64,000 bases of DNA from assembly GCF_023078495.1 (NCBI RefSeq), contig NZ_CP095742.1, positions 620,001-684,000 on the forward strand, given 5' to 3'. This DNA comes from Luteibacter aegosomatissinici. GTDB lineage: Bacteria > Pseudomonadota > Gammaproteobacteria > Xanthomonadales > Rhodanobacteraceae. Shown piece after piece: positions 57,229-63,789 of the stretch. The stretch's first letter is position 1; each line of letters starts with the position of its first letter. The notes below the pieces were generated by a model. It ran no database searches. It was not told the origin of the DNA and saw only the letters and a program-made list of their open reading frames with translations. The position numbers and the translations under genes were made by a program.

Positions 57229-57302
57229 GCGGGTGTAGCTCAATGGTAGAGCTGTAGCTTCCCAAGCTACTGACGAGGGTTCGATTCCCTTCACCCGCTC
57301 CA
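57229..57302 (+). tRNA. tRNA-Gly (anticodon CCC)
   Basis: Cloverleaf of 74 nt including encoded CCA. Acceptor stem GCGGGTG / CACCCGC with discriminator U then CCA; D-arm AGCTCAATGGTAGAGCT; anticodon stem GTAGC/GCTAC with loop TTCCCAA, anticodon CCC; T-arm with GGTTCGATTCC. It reads GGG codons. It marks the left edge of the accessory-looking region. Confidence 0.95.
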
Positions 57303-57680
57303 TTTTGGGAGGCCGTTGTCTCTCATCCTGGTTATGAGGCTCCCTAGCCGATGGGAGGAGCCGCCCACCAATGTACGTTGGTCTAGCAATCGCTAGGTAA
57401 GAGGACTCGGACCCGATTTATCTGGTTCAAAAAATGGCCCTCAAGGGCTTTCTTCTTTTCCTCGATCGACATCACAGCTGAACTCTCAGCGCCGTGCTGT
57501 GACCGTGGCTAGGGCGACTTATGTGCCAAAACCGTCGTCCGCCGCAACGGCGGGTGAACGGAAGTGGCTGGTGGCAGCGGTCCTGAGTGTTGGGGGCAAT
57601 GGCGCTTCAGCCGCACGCCACTCATCACTCGGTCTTTCGCTCCCGAGGCAACGGAGGCAGCAGACACATGACATGGGTCA
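57303..57680. other. Intergenic stretch after tRNA-Gly, no supported gene
   Basis: Only short or compositionally unlikely frames are present. There is no repeat of the tRNA 3' end that would mark an attachment site. Open frames here do not look like proteins. Confidence 0.6.
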
Positions 57681-57951
57681 TCAAGCGGACTCCCCGAGCA
57701 TCAGGCGTTCCACGCGCTGTGCTTCGGTAGCCAACAGGGCACGAAGCCCATCGATGTCGAGGCGCTCCCCTCTATCAGGATGATCCCAGTGCCGCTCACG
57801 TCCAACGGTTACGAGCAAGCCCCCCCGCCTTGCGCTCATCCAGCCGTAAATACTTCTTGACCAACTGCTTGTTGATGGTGTCCCGCAAGTCGCGACCAAG
57901 ACGGTTGACGTCAGTCGGGCGCTGGCCTGCGCCGGGTCGCCGTTTTCGCTT
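57681..57951 (-). pseudogene. Frameshifted C-terminal remnant of an unknown protein
   Basis: The minus strand shows two parts of one protein in adjacent frames. The upstream part reads DVNRLGRDLRDTINKQLVKK then YLRLDERKAGG, and after the run of seven C at 57820-57826 (G7 on the coding strand) the sense continues in another frame as LLVTVGRERHWDHPDRGE to RLDIDGLRALLATEAQRVER-LMLGESA and stops at 57681. Removing one G joins them. The upstream part meets a stop near 57952. Family not recognised. It could also be a sequencing homopolymer error. Confidence 0.55.
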
Positions 57952-58070
57952 TCAGTTGTCCGAATCCGTGTGGCGATTGAGACACCCGACTAGGGACCAT
58001 TCGCCTAAAGTGCAACAGCACCACACATGGCATGGCTTTCCGTACGGGGTCCTGTGCAGTCAGGTGAAGT

Positions 58071-58688
58071 ATGAGGGCGGATCGGATGCCAAGGGGTTAC
58101 CCGTTGTGTCTTCTAAAAGTGGTGTTTGTCGCCGCAAGCGCCCTCTCATTCGTGGGATGCGCCACGAACCTGGGTCCGATCACACCGGGCAATTTGCGCG
58201 TCATTGCTGGATCGGAGATTCCTCTGGCCGACCGCGCCGACATGCATAGCCGCAAAGACAATGAGGCGTGGATGCTGCTGACGTTCTCCAGCGACGACAA
58301 CTATTTGGATGTTGCGGCAGGCAAGCAGATGCACGTCTCCGTGAACGAGTCACTGTGCACCGACGGGCACCTAGTTCGAGACATTATGTCGTCATCCCTC
58401 CTTGCAGGGCCGCCTCCCCCGTCGCTGGTCAGTGACGTCTCGGCGGCGACTGTGAGGCCAAGACGCCACGTTTATTACACCTACTTCGCCATGGCCGCCC
58501 CCAAACGCGCGGCTGTGGGTGCTGATCCCGGGCCGGCGGAAGGGTATGACCTTCACAGCGAGACCCGTGACCTATGCATTCAAGTCCGTGGTGGCAACAT
58601 GATCGGCATGACGGTCGAGTCTGGCATTGCCGTGTTCGCAAACGCTTCGGTACGAGGTGTGGTGGTGTCGAATCATTCGTCGCCGTGA
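58071..58688 (+). CDS. Putative lipoprotein of unknown function
   Basis: 205 residues. Basic start, hydrophobic segment and lipobox SFVGC at about 27-31 (GCATNLGPITPG follows). The mature domain contains GSEIPLADRADMHSRKDNEAW, SVNESLC and GYDLHSETRDLCIQVRGGNMIGMTV; three further Cys might form a disulfide. Start at 58071 with AGGTGA upstream; 58086 is a possible alternative. No known family. Lower GC than the core genes. Confidence 0.65.
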   Translation: MRADRMPRGYPLCLLKVVFVAASALSFVGCATNLGPITPGNLRVIAGSEIPLADRADMHSRKDNEAWMLLTFSSDDNYLDVAAGKQMHVSVNESLCTDGHLVRDIMSSSLLAGPPPPSLVSDVSAATVRPRRHVYYTYFAMAAPKRAAVGADPGPAEGYDLHSETRDLCIQVRGGNMIGMTVESGIAVFANASVRGVVVSNHSSP

Positions 58689-59019
58689 GGCACGATGGTT
58701 GGCGCGCTGAGCGTTTGGCTTCGAGCGGCGACTGGCTGTTACCCGGTTTGCCCAGCCAGCACCTCGCTGGACATGACGCAGGCCGCGGAGCGGGTCCGGG
58801 GATGCCCACTGTCGTTCGATCGCAAGAGTCGCCTTCAGAGCCGGCTGCCTTAGGGTCGATCGCCTTTGGAAGTAACAGGCATGGTGCTTTGAGGTTCCCC
58901 TCTAATGCGTTCGTGTTTGGCGATATGGGTTGTCTAGTCGCTATGCATTGGTGTTTGGACACCTTGTGAAATTGACTGTACCTCGACCCGTGACTAGCCA
59001 GCGCTCCCAAGGATGCAAC
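58689..59019. other. Intergenic stretch, no supported gene
   Basis: Long antisense frame over this stretch (58429-59010) is Pro/Cys/Ser-rich with no convincing features. No promoter or repeat was identified with confidence. Confidence 0.5.
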
Positions 59020-59745
59020 GTGGCAAAGCAGAAAAAGCTCCTAGTTAACTACGCCGATGGCGCTCTTGATGCGCTTCGTGCGCAGTATCAAATGACCAAG
59101 GTGATTTCGCATAGCGTCACCGCTGGGGCCGCGCGTGAGGCGGTACTTCGTGATTTTCTGGTCGCTCACTTACCGAATATGTCTACCGCAATGAGTGGCG
59201 TTATTTTCGATGCTAACGATCGCTTCTCCAAGCAACAAGACATCGTATTTGTACTTAAGTCGTTTCCACGTCTCCCGTTTGTCAGTGGCAGTGATCTGAT
59301 CTACGTAGAGGGCGTTATCGCGACCATCGAAGTGAAGACGGTCATCACAGCGGCCGACTGGAGAAGAACGATTGGCCCAAACATAGCCTCGGTACGGGCC
59401 TTGACGCCAAGTAGTAAGGATTCGGCGGTCATGGGAGATCTCGGCTTTAGCTGGGATGAAAGTCAGATCTTTAGTGCTGTCGTGACGTATGGTGGATCAT
59501 CGCTTCAGAGCATCCAGGGTGCGATCCTGATGCGTCCGGAGGTGGAGTGGCCTGACGTTTATTTAGACCTCGGTCAGGGTATGTTGGTGCGCAGGACCAG
59601 CGGCCTGATTCCAGGCGAGGACGGCGCTGCATTCGTAACATTGGCGGATCCGGCGGTGGCCTTTGCGCATTTCCTCATCTTTCTTACACGCATCACGAGC
59701 CGTTTGACGCTGCGAGACGTTGAGTGGGGAGACTATCTCTATTGA
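59020..59745 (+). CDS. DUF6602-family protein with PD-(D/E)xK-like nuclease motif
   Basis: 241 residues from the GTG at 59020 (AAGGA 7 nt upstream); an ORF extension upstream adds non-conserved residues. GAAREAVLRDFLVAHLP, then GVIFDANDRFSKQQDIVFV and YVEGVIATIEVKT are the DUF6602 pattern as I know it. Asp74 and Glu104-x-Lys106 (numbering from the GTG) form a PD-(D/E)xK-type spacing. The family is often seen in restriction and defence contexts; its activity is not established here. Visibly lower GC than the surrounding core genome. A small ORF starts at its stop. Confidence 0.75.
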   Translation: MAKQKKLLVNYADGALDALRAQYQMTKVISHSVTAGAAREAVLRDFLVAHLPNMSTAMSGVIFDANDRFSKQQDIVFVLKSFPRLPFVSGSDLIYVEGVIATIEVKTVITAADWRRTIGPNIASVRALTPSSKDSAVMGDLGFSWDESQIFSAVVTYGGSSLQSIQGAILMRPEVEWPDVYLDLGQGMLVRRTSGLIPGEDGAAFVTLADPAVAFAHFLIFLTRITSRLTLRDVEWGDYLY

Positions 59746-59954
59746 CGTTGCGCGGTCGCAAGCCGAAGTCGTCGCTTAGAACACCCTTGGATCAAGAGTT
59801 CGGCATCGATTACGACCGATGGAAAGCTTCAAGGCTAGGCTCACGGCTACTCAGCGCGAGGTTGGGGGCGCGGCGCAATGAAGTGGATCGGCATGCGTCA
59901 CACTACGTGAATTCGTATCGAACAATGATTCGTAGTGTCATCTCAGAAGCGTGA
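59742..59954 (+). CDS. Small basic protein, possibly coupled to the DUF6602 gene
   Basis: 70 residues from a TTG that overlaps the stop of the previous gene (TTGA); an ATG at 59724 is in frame too. Sequence includes LDQEFGIDYDRWKASRLGSR and RHASHYVNSYRTMIRSVISE, basic and helical. Overlap with the stop suggests translational coupling. No family recognised and no further evidence, so it may be spurious. Confidence 0.35.
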   Translation: MTLRGRKPKSSLRTPLDQEFGIDYDRWKASRLGSRLLSARLGARRNEVDRHASHYVNSYRTMIRSVISEA

Positions 59955-60280
59955 TGCCCGCAGGCGTTGGTTACCGGGCTGCCACCATAAGTCGGAGCGA
60001 GATTGTAGGTATCACATTGATGCTATTGACGAAAAGTGCTTAGCGACGTGCGAGTTGAAGCTCTGAGCAATGGATCGACATGATTAAACGTCGATTGCCG
60101 GTTGCAACCGTCCCATGGCATCCGATACAAAGGGGTGTCACGGGCTGCCACACGACCTCATTAGAGGAGTGCAAAGGGCGGCCCTTTTCCTTCTGACGGA
60201 TCGTCTCGCCATGGCTCTTCCGTAGTTCAACTTTAGGCGATCGCGTCGCCGTGGATCTCTTCTTACGAGAGCGCCTTCTT
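59955..60280. other. Intergenic stretch, no supported gene
   Basis: No open frame with credible features. A short AAAGG/CCTTT inverted element occurs near 60165-60190 before a T-containing stretch, which may be a weak terminator. Confidence 0.5.
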
Positions 60281-60478
60281 ATGACTTCAACGATGGCCGA
60301 GAGGCGCGCTTACTACGCCAGGGTTCGTGGCGCCAACTACATGAGAAGCCTTCAGTTAGAGGGCTTCGTGCCATCGATAAGTCCTGTCATCGATGCCGTA
60401 GACAATATGGATGCGCGGAGGCCTTCGTCGCCGTATCCCGATCGAATCACCGACCTGATCGAAAATAGCTCCGACTGA
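60281..60478 (+). CDS. YhfG-like small protein (Fic antitoxin family)
   Basis: 65 residues from ATG 60281 (60251 GTG would add ten). The N-terminal block AERRAYYARVRGANYMRSLQ then LEGF matches the YhfG/DUF2559 theme (basic residues, N-Y/F, S-x2-LEGF). YhfG-type proteins are antitoxins encoded directly before fic genes in E. coli. Here no fic follows; the nearest Fic gene lies 850 bp away on the other strand and carries its own inhibitory motif. The C-terminal half has no match in mind. Confidence 0.6.
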   Translation: MTSTMAERRAYYARVRGANYMRSLQLEGFVPSISPVIDAVDNMDARRPSSPYPDRITDLIENSSD

Positions 60479-60534
60479 GCGTCAAGGCTACGCGGGCCTG
60501 CTCTGTGCTGCTTGCCCGCGTGCGTACATTCCGT

Positions 60535-60822
60535 TCAGGGCGTTGCAGACGAGGTGGTGCGGCCACGTAACGCATGCAATTGCGCATGCGCTTCGCTAAC
60601 GAGATGCAACGCTGCCTGCGTCATCGCGGAAATGGCATCCAGTGATAGCGACATCTGCCTGCAATCGACGCTATCCGCTTCGTGTACGAGGTCGGACAGG
60701 GTGGCGGTGACGCCACGTGAGTATTGAAGCCATTCGGTGGCTTCGTTTAGAAGCTCGTGCGGCGAGGGTTCATTGTCTTCCGATTCTGTAGATCGGTTGG
60801 AGGTCATCATGAACTCGTTCAT
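60535..60822 (-). CDS. Small helical protein of unknown function
   Basis: 95 residues from ATG 60822 (AAGGA 7 nt upstream). Acidic/polar N-terminus followed by ELLNEATEWLQYSRGVTATLSDLVHEADSV and LDAISAMTQAALHLVSEAHAQL, two amphipathic helices. This looks like the small DUF3077/DUF6124 proteins of Pseudomonas and relatives, by eye only. Coding potential is supported by the ribosome binding site and absence of low-complexity sequence. Confidence 0.6.
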   Translation of the reverse strand: MNEFMMTSNRSTESEDNEPSPHELLNEATEWLQYSRGVTATLSDLVHEADSVDCRQMSLSLDAISAMTQAALHLVSEAHAQLHALRGRTTSSATP

Positions 60823-61181
60823 GCTCATTTCCTTTTCGGAGCCAACCGCGCTCTAACGTGGCACGACAGTCAACACGACCTGCCGTGCCACGGACCATAG
60901 GATCGCGGGTTCACCGGCTGCCCTATCCAGGCGCCGGGCGGCTTGATTGATGAAGTGGTTTGCAGCGACATCCGCCCGTGAGGCTTGCCAGGCGTTATGC
61001 CTGCCTCATTCGATCAAGAATTGCCTCAAAACGGCGGTCGCAGCGGTTCTTCAACCGCGCCTGCGGATTATGCAGACGGCCCGTTAACCGGTGAGGTGTC
61101 GCCGGGGGGATCCGGCGGGCGGACGAGTACCGTATGATCAGGGACAGCCACTATCGACTCCACTTCAGTTGGTTGTGGTTA
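60823..61181. other. Intergenic stretch, no supported gene
   Basis: Nothing convincing is encoded. It leads into the row of hairpins at 61182. Confidence 0.5.
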
Positions 61182-61276
61182 GCAGGCCAGGCGGTGCGCT
61201 AACACCTCTGGCCTGCGACTCTCACCGCCGTGGCGGTGGTTGCTCGCGTAGCGCTAAGGGCGGAGGCGCGAGCAAC
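61182..61276. other. Three consecutive strong hairpins, possible structured RNA or DNA element
   Basis: (1) 61182-61216, GCAGGCCAG/CTGGCCTGC with inner GGTG/CACC; (2) 61223-61238, CACCGCC-GT-GGCGGTG; (3) 61239-61276, GTTGCTCGCG/CGCGAGCAAC. They sit almost back to back, 53 bp beyond the stop of the Fic gene (61329). No T-run follows on either strand, so ordinary termination is not obvious. Confidence 0.5.
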
Positions 61277-61328
61277 GAGATGACCGTAGCAAATCGCGAT
61301 CACCTTGTCTGTAGGGCTGCGGCGCGTC

Positions 61329-62477
61329 TTACTCTCGCAGCAAGTCGACGTAACGCTTGTACTCGAACCGCTGTGCGCGTGGCTTGCCCGTGGTTTCGCG
61401 GAGGACATCGATGCTACGTAGCACTTCGATCGCCTTTGATGCTGTCGGGTGGGATACGTCGAGCGCCTGCACCGCGCGATCTACCGTGAGTTTGGGCATC
61501 GTAGGAAGTAACTCAAAAAGACGTAACGTCACCAGAGTGCCGGTGCCATTCGCCAGGAGGCGTTTGCGGTCTTCCGCGATCAGTGCGGCGATGGCGACGA
61601 TGTTCCTTTGGGCATCTTCGGCCGCCGCCTCGACACCTTCGAGAAAGAAGGACACCCATCCTTCCCAGTCGCCGTCGCGCCGAACGGCAGTAAGGCGATC
61701 GTAGTAGGTGCGCTGATTCGCCTTCAGATAGCCGGACACGTAAAGCAGCGGCTCCGGTAGAAGCTTCCACTCTTCGAGCAGCATGGCGATCAGCAATCGG
61801 CCGATGCGGCCATTGCCATCCAGGAACGGATGGATGGTCTCGAACTGCGCGTGCACGAGCGCTGTTCGGACCAAGGGCGGGAGCGTGGGGGATGGCGCAT
61901 GGATGTACCGCTCCAGGTCGCTGAGTGCGCCGGGAACCTCGTTAGCCGGTGGCGGTACGAAGCTCGCGTTCCCCGGGCGTGTGCCGCCGATCCAGTTCTG
62001 ACTGGTCCTGATGGCACCTGGTTGCTTCGTTGCGCCGCGAACACCGGACATCAGCACGCGGTGGGCCTCTGTGAGCAGGCGAAGCGACAAGGACAGGCCC
62101 TTCGGATCGGCGAGCTGAGCGCGTGCGGATCTAACGGCTCGAATGTAGTTGGCAACCTCCTCGGCGTGTTCGGCGCTGGGTACTTTGATGCCCGCCTCCA
62201 CATCAAGGATATCGGTAAGAGTTACCTGGATACCTTCGAGTTGAGAGGTCAGAAGTGCCTCCTTTCGGATGGCGCTGTAGGTGATCCATTCGCTGGATGC
62301 CGCGAAGCCACTCAAGGCCGAGAGGCGAGCCAGGGCCAGCTCGGCGCAGCGATTCCGTTCGACGTAGGCATTCGCATCGAGCACTGGATCCTCCGGAGGG
62401 AGCGCTAGCGGTACGAATGCTCGGACGTTCTCGTCGCCTGCTGTGGTCGTCACGTAGGTTCCGGTCGCGCGAGCCAT
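61329..62477 (-). CDS. Fic-family AMPylation protein with C-terminal winged helix
   Basis: 382 residues (GGAGGA upstream of ATG 62477). Active-site motif HPFLDGNGRIGR near 214-225 (HPFx[D/E]GNGRxxR, complete). Inhibitory motif TSQLEG near 78-83 fits (S/T)xxxE(G/N), which in class II Fic proteins lies N-terminal and blocks AMP transfer. The C-terminal part (TVDRAVQALDVSHPTASKAIEVLRSIDVL) is a winged-helix DNA-binding domain. Such proteins transfer AMP to target hydroxyl groups and may autoregulate. Repeated palindromic elements lie directly upstream. Confidence 0.95.
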   Translation of the reverse strand: MARATGTYVTTTAGDENVRAFVPLALPPEDPVLDANAYVERNRCAELALARLSALSGFAASSEWITYSAIRKEALLTSQLEGIQVTLTDILDVEAGIKVPSAEHAEEVANYIRAVRSARAQLADPKGLSLSLRLLTEAHRVLMSGVRGATKQPGAIRTSQNWIGGTRPGNASFVPPPANEVPGALSDLERYIHAPSPTLPPLVRTALVHAQFETIHPFLDGNGRIGRLLIAMLLEEWKLLPEPLLYVSGYLKANQRTYYDRLTAVRRDGDWEGWVSFFLEGVEAAAEDAQRNIVAIAALIAEDRKRLLANGTGTLVTLRLFELLPTMPKLTVDRAVQALDVSHPTASKAIEVLRSIDVLRETTGKPRAQRFEYKRYVDLLRE

Positions 62478-62695: not shown

Positions 62696-62721
62696 AAGTG
62701 CATGAACGATGCGAGGTCGCC

Positions 62722-63093
62722 ATGGTCGCCGTGTTCCAACCGCCGTTGATCGAGCGTTTCCGCGAGTCGGATACTCCGTACCTTTCGCCTGCCAAGGTGG
62801 GGGAGTTTTTTGGGTTCCGGGTGCAGGAGCTGGCTGAGCGGGCCCATGTCCACCGAAATACGCCTACGTCGCGCCCGCAGGCTCCTCAACTCCAGAAATA
62901 TCTGCAGGACATGGTTCGCGTTCTGGCGGCGGCAGCCGAGATGACTGGTGACATTGACCGCGCGGCATTTCTTGTCCGTAACGAGCCACTTCGCGCGTTC
63001 GGCTACAAGACGGCCGACATGCTGATCCAGGACGGCAGGACCGACGACGTTATTGGATATCTTGAATCGATGGCAGGTGGTGCTGCTGGATGA
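62722..63093 (+). CDS. Xre/MbcA/ParS-type antitoxin (RES-Xre pair)
   Basis: 123 residues from ATG 62722 (GAGG five bases upstream). A short DNA-binding region (YLSPAKVGEFFGFRVQELAERAHVHRNTP) is followed by the MbcA/ParS toxin-binding domain, with LVRNEPLRAFGYKTADMLIQDGRTDDVIGYLESM. The upstream GTG at 62698 is possible, but the promoter sits there. The stop overlaps the RES start (ATGA), as usual for antitoxin-toxin pairs. Confidence 0.9.
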   Translation: MVAVFQPPLIERFRESDTPYLSPAKVGEFFGFRVQELAERAHVHRNTPTSRPQAPQLQKYLQDMVRVLAAAAEMTGDIDRAAFLVRNEPLRAFGYKTADMLIQDGRTDDVIGYLESMAGGAAG

Positions 63094-63611
63094 TCATTGC
63101 AAACGTCGGAGCAGGATCGCTCCTTGCGTGCTATCGCGTCATAGCTCCGCGCTACGCGACCACGCCACGTTCAGGGATGGGGGCCGCCCGGAAGGGTGGG
63201 CGCTTCAATCGGCCAGGTCAGGAAGCGCTTTATCTCGCTCTCGATGAAGCCACTGCTCTGGCGGAATACAAGCAGGACAATCCCTGGCTGCCTCCGGGCA
63301 CGATTTGTACGTTCTTCCTGAACAATATGAATCTCGCCGATCTGAGCGCGGGCTATGAAGCAGCGCATTGGCCACCTCTTTGGGCGGACTTTGCTATCGA
63401 TTGGCGAAGCGAGTGGTTCGGCAGTCATGTTGAGCCGCCCACTTGGTACATGTCTGATGACGTTGTCGCGGCCGGTCTGGACGGCATCATCTTCCCATCT
63501 CAAGCGCATCCGGGAGGACGGAACCTCGTCGTCTACCGAAGTTCTGAGCGCCCGGCATCTGACTTACAGGTTTACGACCCCGCGGGTGTCCTACAAACGA
63601 TAACCCTCTAG
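63090..63611 (+). CDS. RES-domain toxin (NAD+ depleting)
   Basis: 173 residues. RES motifs: CYRVIAP with Arg16, GGRFN 36-40, ALYLALDEATALAEY with candidate catalytic Glu53/Glu59, and GIIFPS near the end. RES toxins degrade NAD+ in the cell and are held inactive by the preceding Xre/ParS protein. Overlaps it by four bases. Appears intact. Confidence 0.92.
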   Translation: MIIANVGAGSLLACYRVIAPRYATTPRSGMGAARKGGRFNRPGQEALYLALDEATALAEYKQDNPWLPPGTICTFFLNNMNLADLSAGYEAAHWPPLWADFAIDWRSEWFGSHVEPPTWYMSDDVVAAGLDGIIFPSQAHPGGRNLVVYRSSERPASDLQVYDPAGVLQTITL

Positions 63612-63789
63612 TCCGATGATCTGGTCGCGTTGTGAATCGGGCCGATGACGAACGACCAAAAGGTCTCGGATGTGCGGCAAGCCCTCGTGGGAATGAGTGT
63701 TGGCTTTGTTGCCGGTCCTAGGCCTTCCAGCACTGTCTCCCCTGGCGCGATCTAAGTAATTTCTCACCCGGGTAAACAGGGAGTACACC
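63612..63789. other. Intergenic stretch after the RES gene
   Basis: 178 bp with no credible gene. The GC content returns towards that of the core genome before the yccF-type gene. Confidence 0.6.

Follow-up and report, generated by a model that had tools for sequence, protein, structure and literature searches.

What activates a DNase of the NucC fold when no second messenger is supplied to it? The question is raised by a gene of Luteibacter aegosomatissinici whose predicted product keeps the catalytic site of such an enzyme, has no adjacent cyclase and has largely lost the signal pocket. NucC is a bacterial DNA-cutting enzyme that kills phage-infected cells; it is activated by cAAA, passes from trimer to hexamer, and in this state is a double-strand DNase. 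It has been described as the cyclic-trinucleotide-activated effector of CBASS and of type III CRISPR systems (PMC10419184, PMC8682760). The gene considered here encodes a member of the DUF6602 family, of which we found no mention in the literature searched.

The window, that is, the whole stretch of 64,000 nucleotides that was analysed, comprises bases 620001–684000 of a complete, single-contig genome of 4.99 Mb (about 5.0 Mb). The initial annotation of this DNA described a DUF6602 protein with nuclease-like residues and a small open reading frame starting within its stop codon, and suggested that the pair could be an undescribed nuclease-partner or toxin-antitoxin module. The first half of this proposal, a nuclease fold, stands; the pair does not, as there is no conserved second gene and the codons of the small frame resemble those of shadow ORFs. 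The features discussed below are located in Table 1.

Table 1. Features of the nuclease locus, in coordinates of the window
Feature	Position	Strand	Remarks
Gene for stand-alone NucC-fold/DUF6602 nuclease (predicted), 241 aa, GTG start	59020–59745	+	Stop codon 59743–59745; Pfam, PADLOC and PDB sequence matches, AlphaFold2, Foldseek, VIA-align
D74 codon (leading acidic residue of the PD-(D/E)xK triad)	59239–59241	+	Conserved in 46/46
E104-V105-K106 codons (ExK motif in the triad)	59329–59337	+	E in 45/46, K in 46/46
70-codon frame, TTG start	59742–59954	+	4-nt overlap with the nuclease stop codon (TTGA); unlikely to be a gene, an orphan at most
tRNA-Gly (ccc)	57229–57302	+	Conserved backbone ends and variable hotspot begins here
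Strain-specific hotspot segment with the nuclease	57304–60587		About 1.7 kb of unrelated DNA instead in congener G110; GC 52–62%

Fold and catalytic residues of the nuclease

The nuclease frame is intact and of full length, its codon usage is coding-like, and an AAGGA sequence resembling a ribosome-binding site lies 6 nt 5' of its GTG; promoter and terminator scans returned matches at chance level only. The Pfam model DUF6602 (PF20247) covers residues 26–128 (E 2.1e-16; 60.1 bits against a curated cut-off of 27), which places the protein in that family. This match, together with a re-reading of the sequence, confirmed the facts given in the initial annotation, namely the DUF6602 domain, D74, E104-x-K106, and a TTG frame within the stop codon. 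The PD-(D/E)xK residues are not a product of chance: D74 and K106 are invariant among 46 aligned DUF6602/NucC proteins, as are G36, E40 and E97, and E104 is absent from a single one. The NCBIfam model of the SocB toxin also matched over the catalytic region (residues 68–119), too weakly to be retained (E 0.063; 12.3 bits against a cut-off of 210).

Sequence comparison leads from DUF6602 to NucC. The PADLOC models that matched the protein were PD_DExK (CRISPR-associated; 5e-21), the NucC "Effector" model (1.8e-14) and NucC (1.3e-10), and the PADLOC NucC models match all 46 family proteins of our alignment. When all PDB sequences were searched with the protein, five NucC sequences were the sole matches (best E 2.6e-5), with the triad aligned. 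D74, E104 and K106 correspond to D73, E104 and K106 of NucC, and the two proteins are alike in length (about 241 aa), at an overall identity of about 16–20%.

An AlphaFold2 model of the nuclease, computed from the 46 family sequences, has a mean pLDDT of 89.6 and a pTM of 0.88, its input alignment containing five NucC-clade rows that may bias it toward NucC. Foldseek returned 14 significant matches to this model, every one of them a NucC chain, with E values down to 4e-15. NucC effectors of CBASS and type III CRISPR systems are known from E. coli MS115-1, P. aeruginosa ATCC27853, V. metoecus and Serratia (PDB 6p7o/6p7p, 6q1h, 6uxf/6uxg and 7zgv/7zgw). In VIA-align the model gave Z scores of 20–23 against NucC across 206–219 residues. 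The best partner, 6p7p_B, aligned over 219 residues (Z 23.0; rmsd 3.0), so that the whole chain, and not a part of it, is predicted to adopt the fold of NucC. Model confidence is lowest at residues of about 131–150, where a loop of NucC is missing.

The next fold after NucC was that of the restriction enzyme NgoMIV (Z 10.0), and the type II PD-(D/E)xK enzymes NgoMIV, SgrAI and Bse634I together (Z 8–10) share the nuclease core with our model. The resemblance to NucC and to restriction enzymes alike, along with the D...ExK triad aligned with that of NucC, assigns the protein to the PD-(D/E)xK superfamily. It also brings up the possibility of a solitary restriction-like endonuclease that reads a site or a modification on foreign DNA while the host is protected by a methylase encoded elsewhere. 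We regard this as quite unlikely: the match falls far below that to NucC (Z 10 versus 23), and no methylase occurs among the described genes adjoining the nuclease or among the 25 commonest families listed beside its relatives.

On the strength of sequence and model, the protein belongs, as a divergent and stand-alone member, to the NucC-fold branch of the PD-(D/E)xK nucleases. Structure prediction thus bears out the claim of a nuclease fold. The kind of nuclease is one already described, fold and triad being those of NucC.

The overlapping 70-codon frame

In a two-gene nuclease-partner or toxin-antitoxin module, the basic 70-residue product (pI 11.1) of the small frame would regulate the nuclease. 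The TTGA overlap of start and stop codons fits such coupling, as does a GGGGAG motif 5' of the TTG. A single-sequence AlphaFold2 prediction gave one long helix (pTM 0.41), which is confident as a helix and a weak argument, because long charged helices are easily predicted. Conservation and coding potential both point the other way. A search 3' of 54 DUF6602 homologs, which do without the frame, returned no relative of it (best E 1.9), and the 233 genomes of the bacterial family yielded noise-level matches only, the weak ones recorded (L013–L026) lying in unrelated or stop-broken frames. Searches of Pfam, NCBIfam, PADLOC and PHROGs gave nothing significant for the product.

With codon models built from core or island genes, the frame scored no better than its own +1 frame, whereas all seven other regional genes that were tested scored best in their own frame. 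With the core model 43% of shadow ORFs scored at least as well, and with the island model 24%, 70 codons being a short stretch on which to exclude coding. An open run of this length has a chance of about 4% per frame from base composition, and it begins here with TTG. We also considered that the frame might be a displaced C-terminus of the nuclease; this was rejected, as the match between the nuclease model and NucC already runs to the final residues of the model.

The frame is therefore probably not a gene, and at best a strain-specific orphan gene. It plays no demonstrable part in the function of the nuclease, and a module of two genes is very unlikely. The suggestion of a partner or antitoxin fails on the neighbourhood survey, in which the small ORF was absent beside 54 of 54 homologs, and on codon usage, which carried no signal; a false toxin-antitoxin lead is thereby removed.

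Signal pocket, cyclases and relatives

Residues R53, Y81 and T226 of E. coli NucC are those that we take to form the cAAA pocket. In the 46-sequence alignment the first two are replaced in the window protein, by M54 and F82 respectively, and T226 is ambiguously aligned with T230. The loop LHRTS...HAGGTY..KP (variants HA(G/K)G..KP), which the NucC rows have in common with small variations, is absent. In NucC, the HRTS...HAGGTY loop closes over cAAA. The window protein has accordingly lost both R53 and Y81 of the pocket as well as its lid.

We searched the complete genome with profiles of two cyclase models, the CD-NTase domain SMODS (PF18144) and the Cas10 palm. SMODS had no match, and the Cas10 palm had a single one, below the curated cut-off; the protein in question is a GGDEF protein with an FGGEEF motif, that is, a diguanylate cyclase. 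Judged by these two models, the window gene is not encoded with a CD-NTase or Cas10 as NucC is. The expected arrangement was recovered in a control on 36 genomes, where SMODS lay within about 2 kb of the NucC-clade gene in six of six carriers. Among genomes with stand-alone DUF6602, 3 of 30 contained SMODS anywhere. From their coordinates, one of the three appears to lie beyond the end of the DUF6602 contig and another cannot share the short contig; the third would lie some 16 kb away, provided that it is on the DUF6602 contig in the first place.

In phylogenetic trees the NucC clade (L004, L006, L008, L011 and L027, and in the first tree also L009) has support of 98–100 without the window protein, which stands outside it on a long, isolated branch. 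The approximately unbiased (AU) test does not reject a sisterhood of the two (p-AU 0.253), and for that reason a cyclic-nucleotide trigger is possible. The protein might then be an orphaned NucC, still responsive to cAAA, that has lost its CBASS operon and receives the cyclic trinucleotide from elsewhere, such as another cyclase family, a co-resident plasmid or a phage-borne system. Fold and length agree with this, and a threonine can be aligned with T226. We nevertheless hold it to be unlikely in view of the changes at R53 and Y81, the missing loop, the 100/100 support for a NucC clade without the window protein, and a complete 5.0-Mb genome devoid of SMODS and of any Cas10 above cut-off.

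Stand-alone relatives of the nuclease (L003, L049–L083) were found in Bacteroidota, Planctomycetota, Verrucomicrobiota, Chloroflexota, Cyanobacteriota, Campylobacterota and Pseudomonadota. They exceed the Pfam cut-off, share the triad together with G36, E40 and E97, and have no adjacent cyclase that we could see; overall identity to the window protein is just 22–28%, and the latter forms a long branch of its own. DUF6602 is present in 10 of the 233 family genomes (protein search, E ≤ 0.001), six of these ten belonging to the NucC clade or near it, and in 15 of 369 genomes of the class (profile search). The neighbours of the stand-alone relatives are varied, including reverse transcriptase/Drt9, TIR and metabolic genes as well as DUF6602 in tandem. 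Because they are so heterogeneous, a role in defence is inferred from context. Tandem DUF6602 genes, of 269 and 266 aa, occur in Pseudomonas lactucae (L068:676–2344) and P. pisciculturae (L072:10007–11676).

The nuclease is present in a single copy in its own genome, and 1 of 22 congeners has a relative, at 34% identity. Exact-word scanning detected no close relative among the genomes of 84,980 species, nor did a single-protein scan of viral contigs. The long isolated branch and the lack of close relatives make relaxed constraint possible. Along with the scarcity of copies, the length of the branch would suit a decaying or inactive NucC-like remnant retained by chance in a hotspot. Such a remnant is improbable, however, given a full-length frame with coding-like codons, a confident model, and the retention of the catalytic residues and of the invariant G36, E40 and E97.

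We favour, with a probability of roughly 0.6, a cyclase-free DNase of the NucC fold that would be held as an autoinhibited oligomer, respond to a trigger other than CBASS cAAA, and stop the spread of phages or plasmids. By analogy with NucC, the protein would assemble as an oligomer and be kept inactive until triggered. Since the nuclease has no dedicated cyclase, this trigger is most likely not cAAA made by CBASS; candidates are a phage product, a particular nucleic-acid state and some other small molecule. Once triggered, the enzyme would, like NucC, cut double-stranded DNA with Mg2+, and phage or plasmid spread would be halted, possibly through killing of the cell (abortive-type defence). 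Autoinhibition would explain the absence of a methylase or antitoxin partner. More tentatively, and at clearly less than even odds, the stand-alone DUF6602 proteins as a whole may constitute a widespread, cyclase-free arm of the NucC fold whose members sense another trigger directly and act as single-gene abortive defence.

A variable hotspot beside tRNA-Gly

Synteny with congeners stops at tRNA-Gly(ccc) and restarts near 63720 at the YccF gene (yccF). GC content drops in this interval from about 66% to 52–62% (window, 64%). The interval from the tRNA to yccF is about 2.6 kb in congener G110, with genes for an HTH protein and an alpha/beta hydrolase, and about 10.5 kb in congener G103, with AbiEi/AbiEii, a PIN-domain gene and others. 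In the window, the cargo of the hotspot includes, besides the nuclease, genes for a YhfG-like protein, a Fic protein and an Xre/RES pair. The hotspot stretch that was searched contained no duplicate of the tRNA 3' end, which leaves integrase-style integration unsupported. The nuclease is thus cargo of a variable, tRNA-adjacent hotspot that also holds toxin-antitoxin-type genes, a setting in keeping with the initial annotation's description of its family as common in defence loci.

Several of the neighbouring elements merit description. The YhfG-like frame (60251–60478, plus strand; 75 aa) matches PF10832, of the FicA-type antitoxin family, at 26.0 bits against a cut-off of 22.6; no fic gene lies directly 3' of it, and the Fic protein, with a Fic_N domain, is encoded on the opposite strand at 61332–62477. 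An Xre/MbcA/ParS-like antitoxin and a RES-domain toxin, their genes overlapping by four bases, occupy 62698–63611 (plus strand). AbiEi/AbiEii genes are located at L092:9052–10789 in a congener's tRNA-Gly hotspot. At about 60588–61333 the window contains a dispersed repeat of about 0.45–0.75 kb, with a 97-aa minus-strand frame (60535–60828), lacking a Pfam match, at its left end; some ten further copies of the repeat are present in the same genome at 71–82% identity, and many in congeners.
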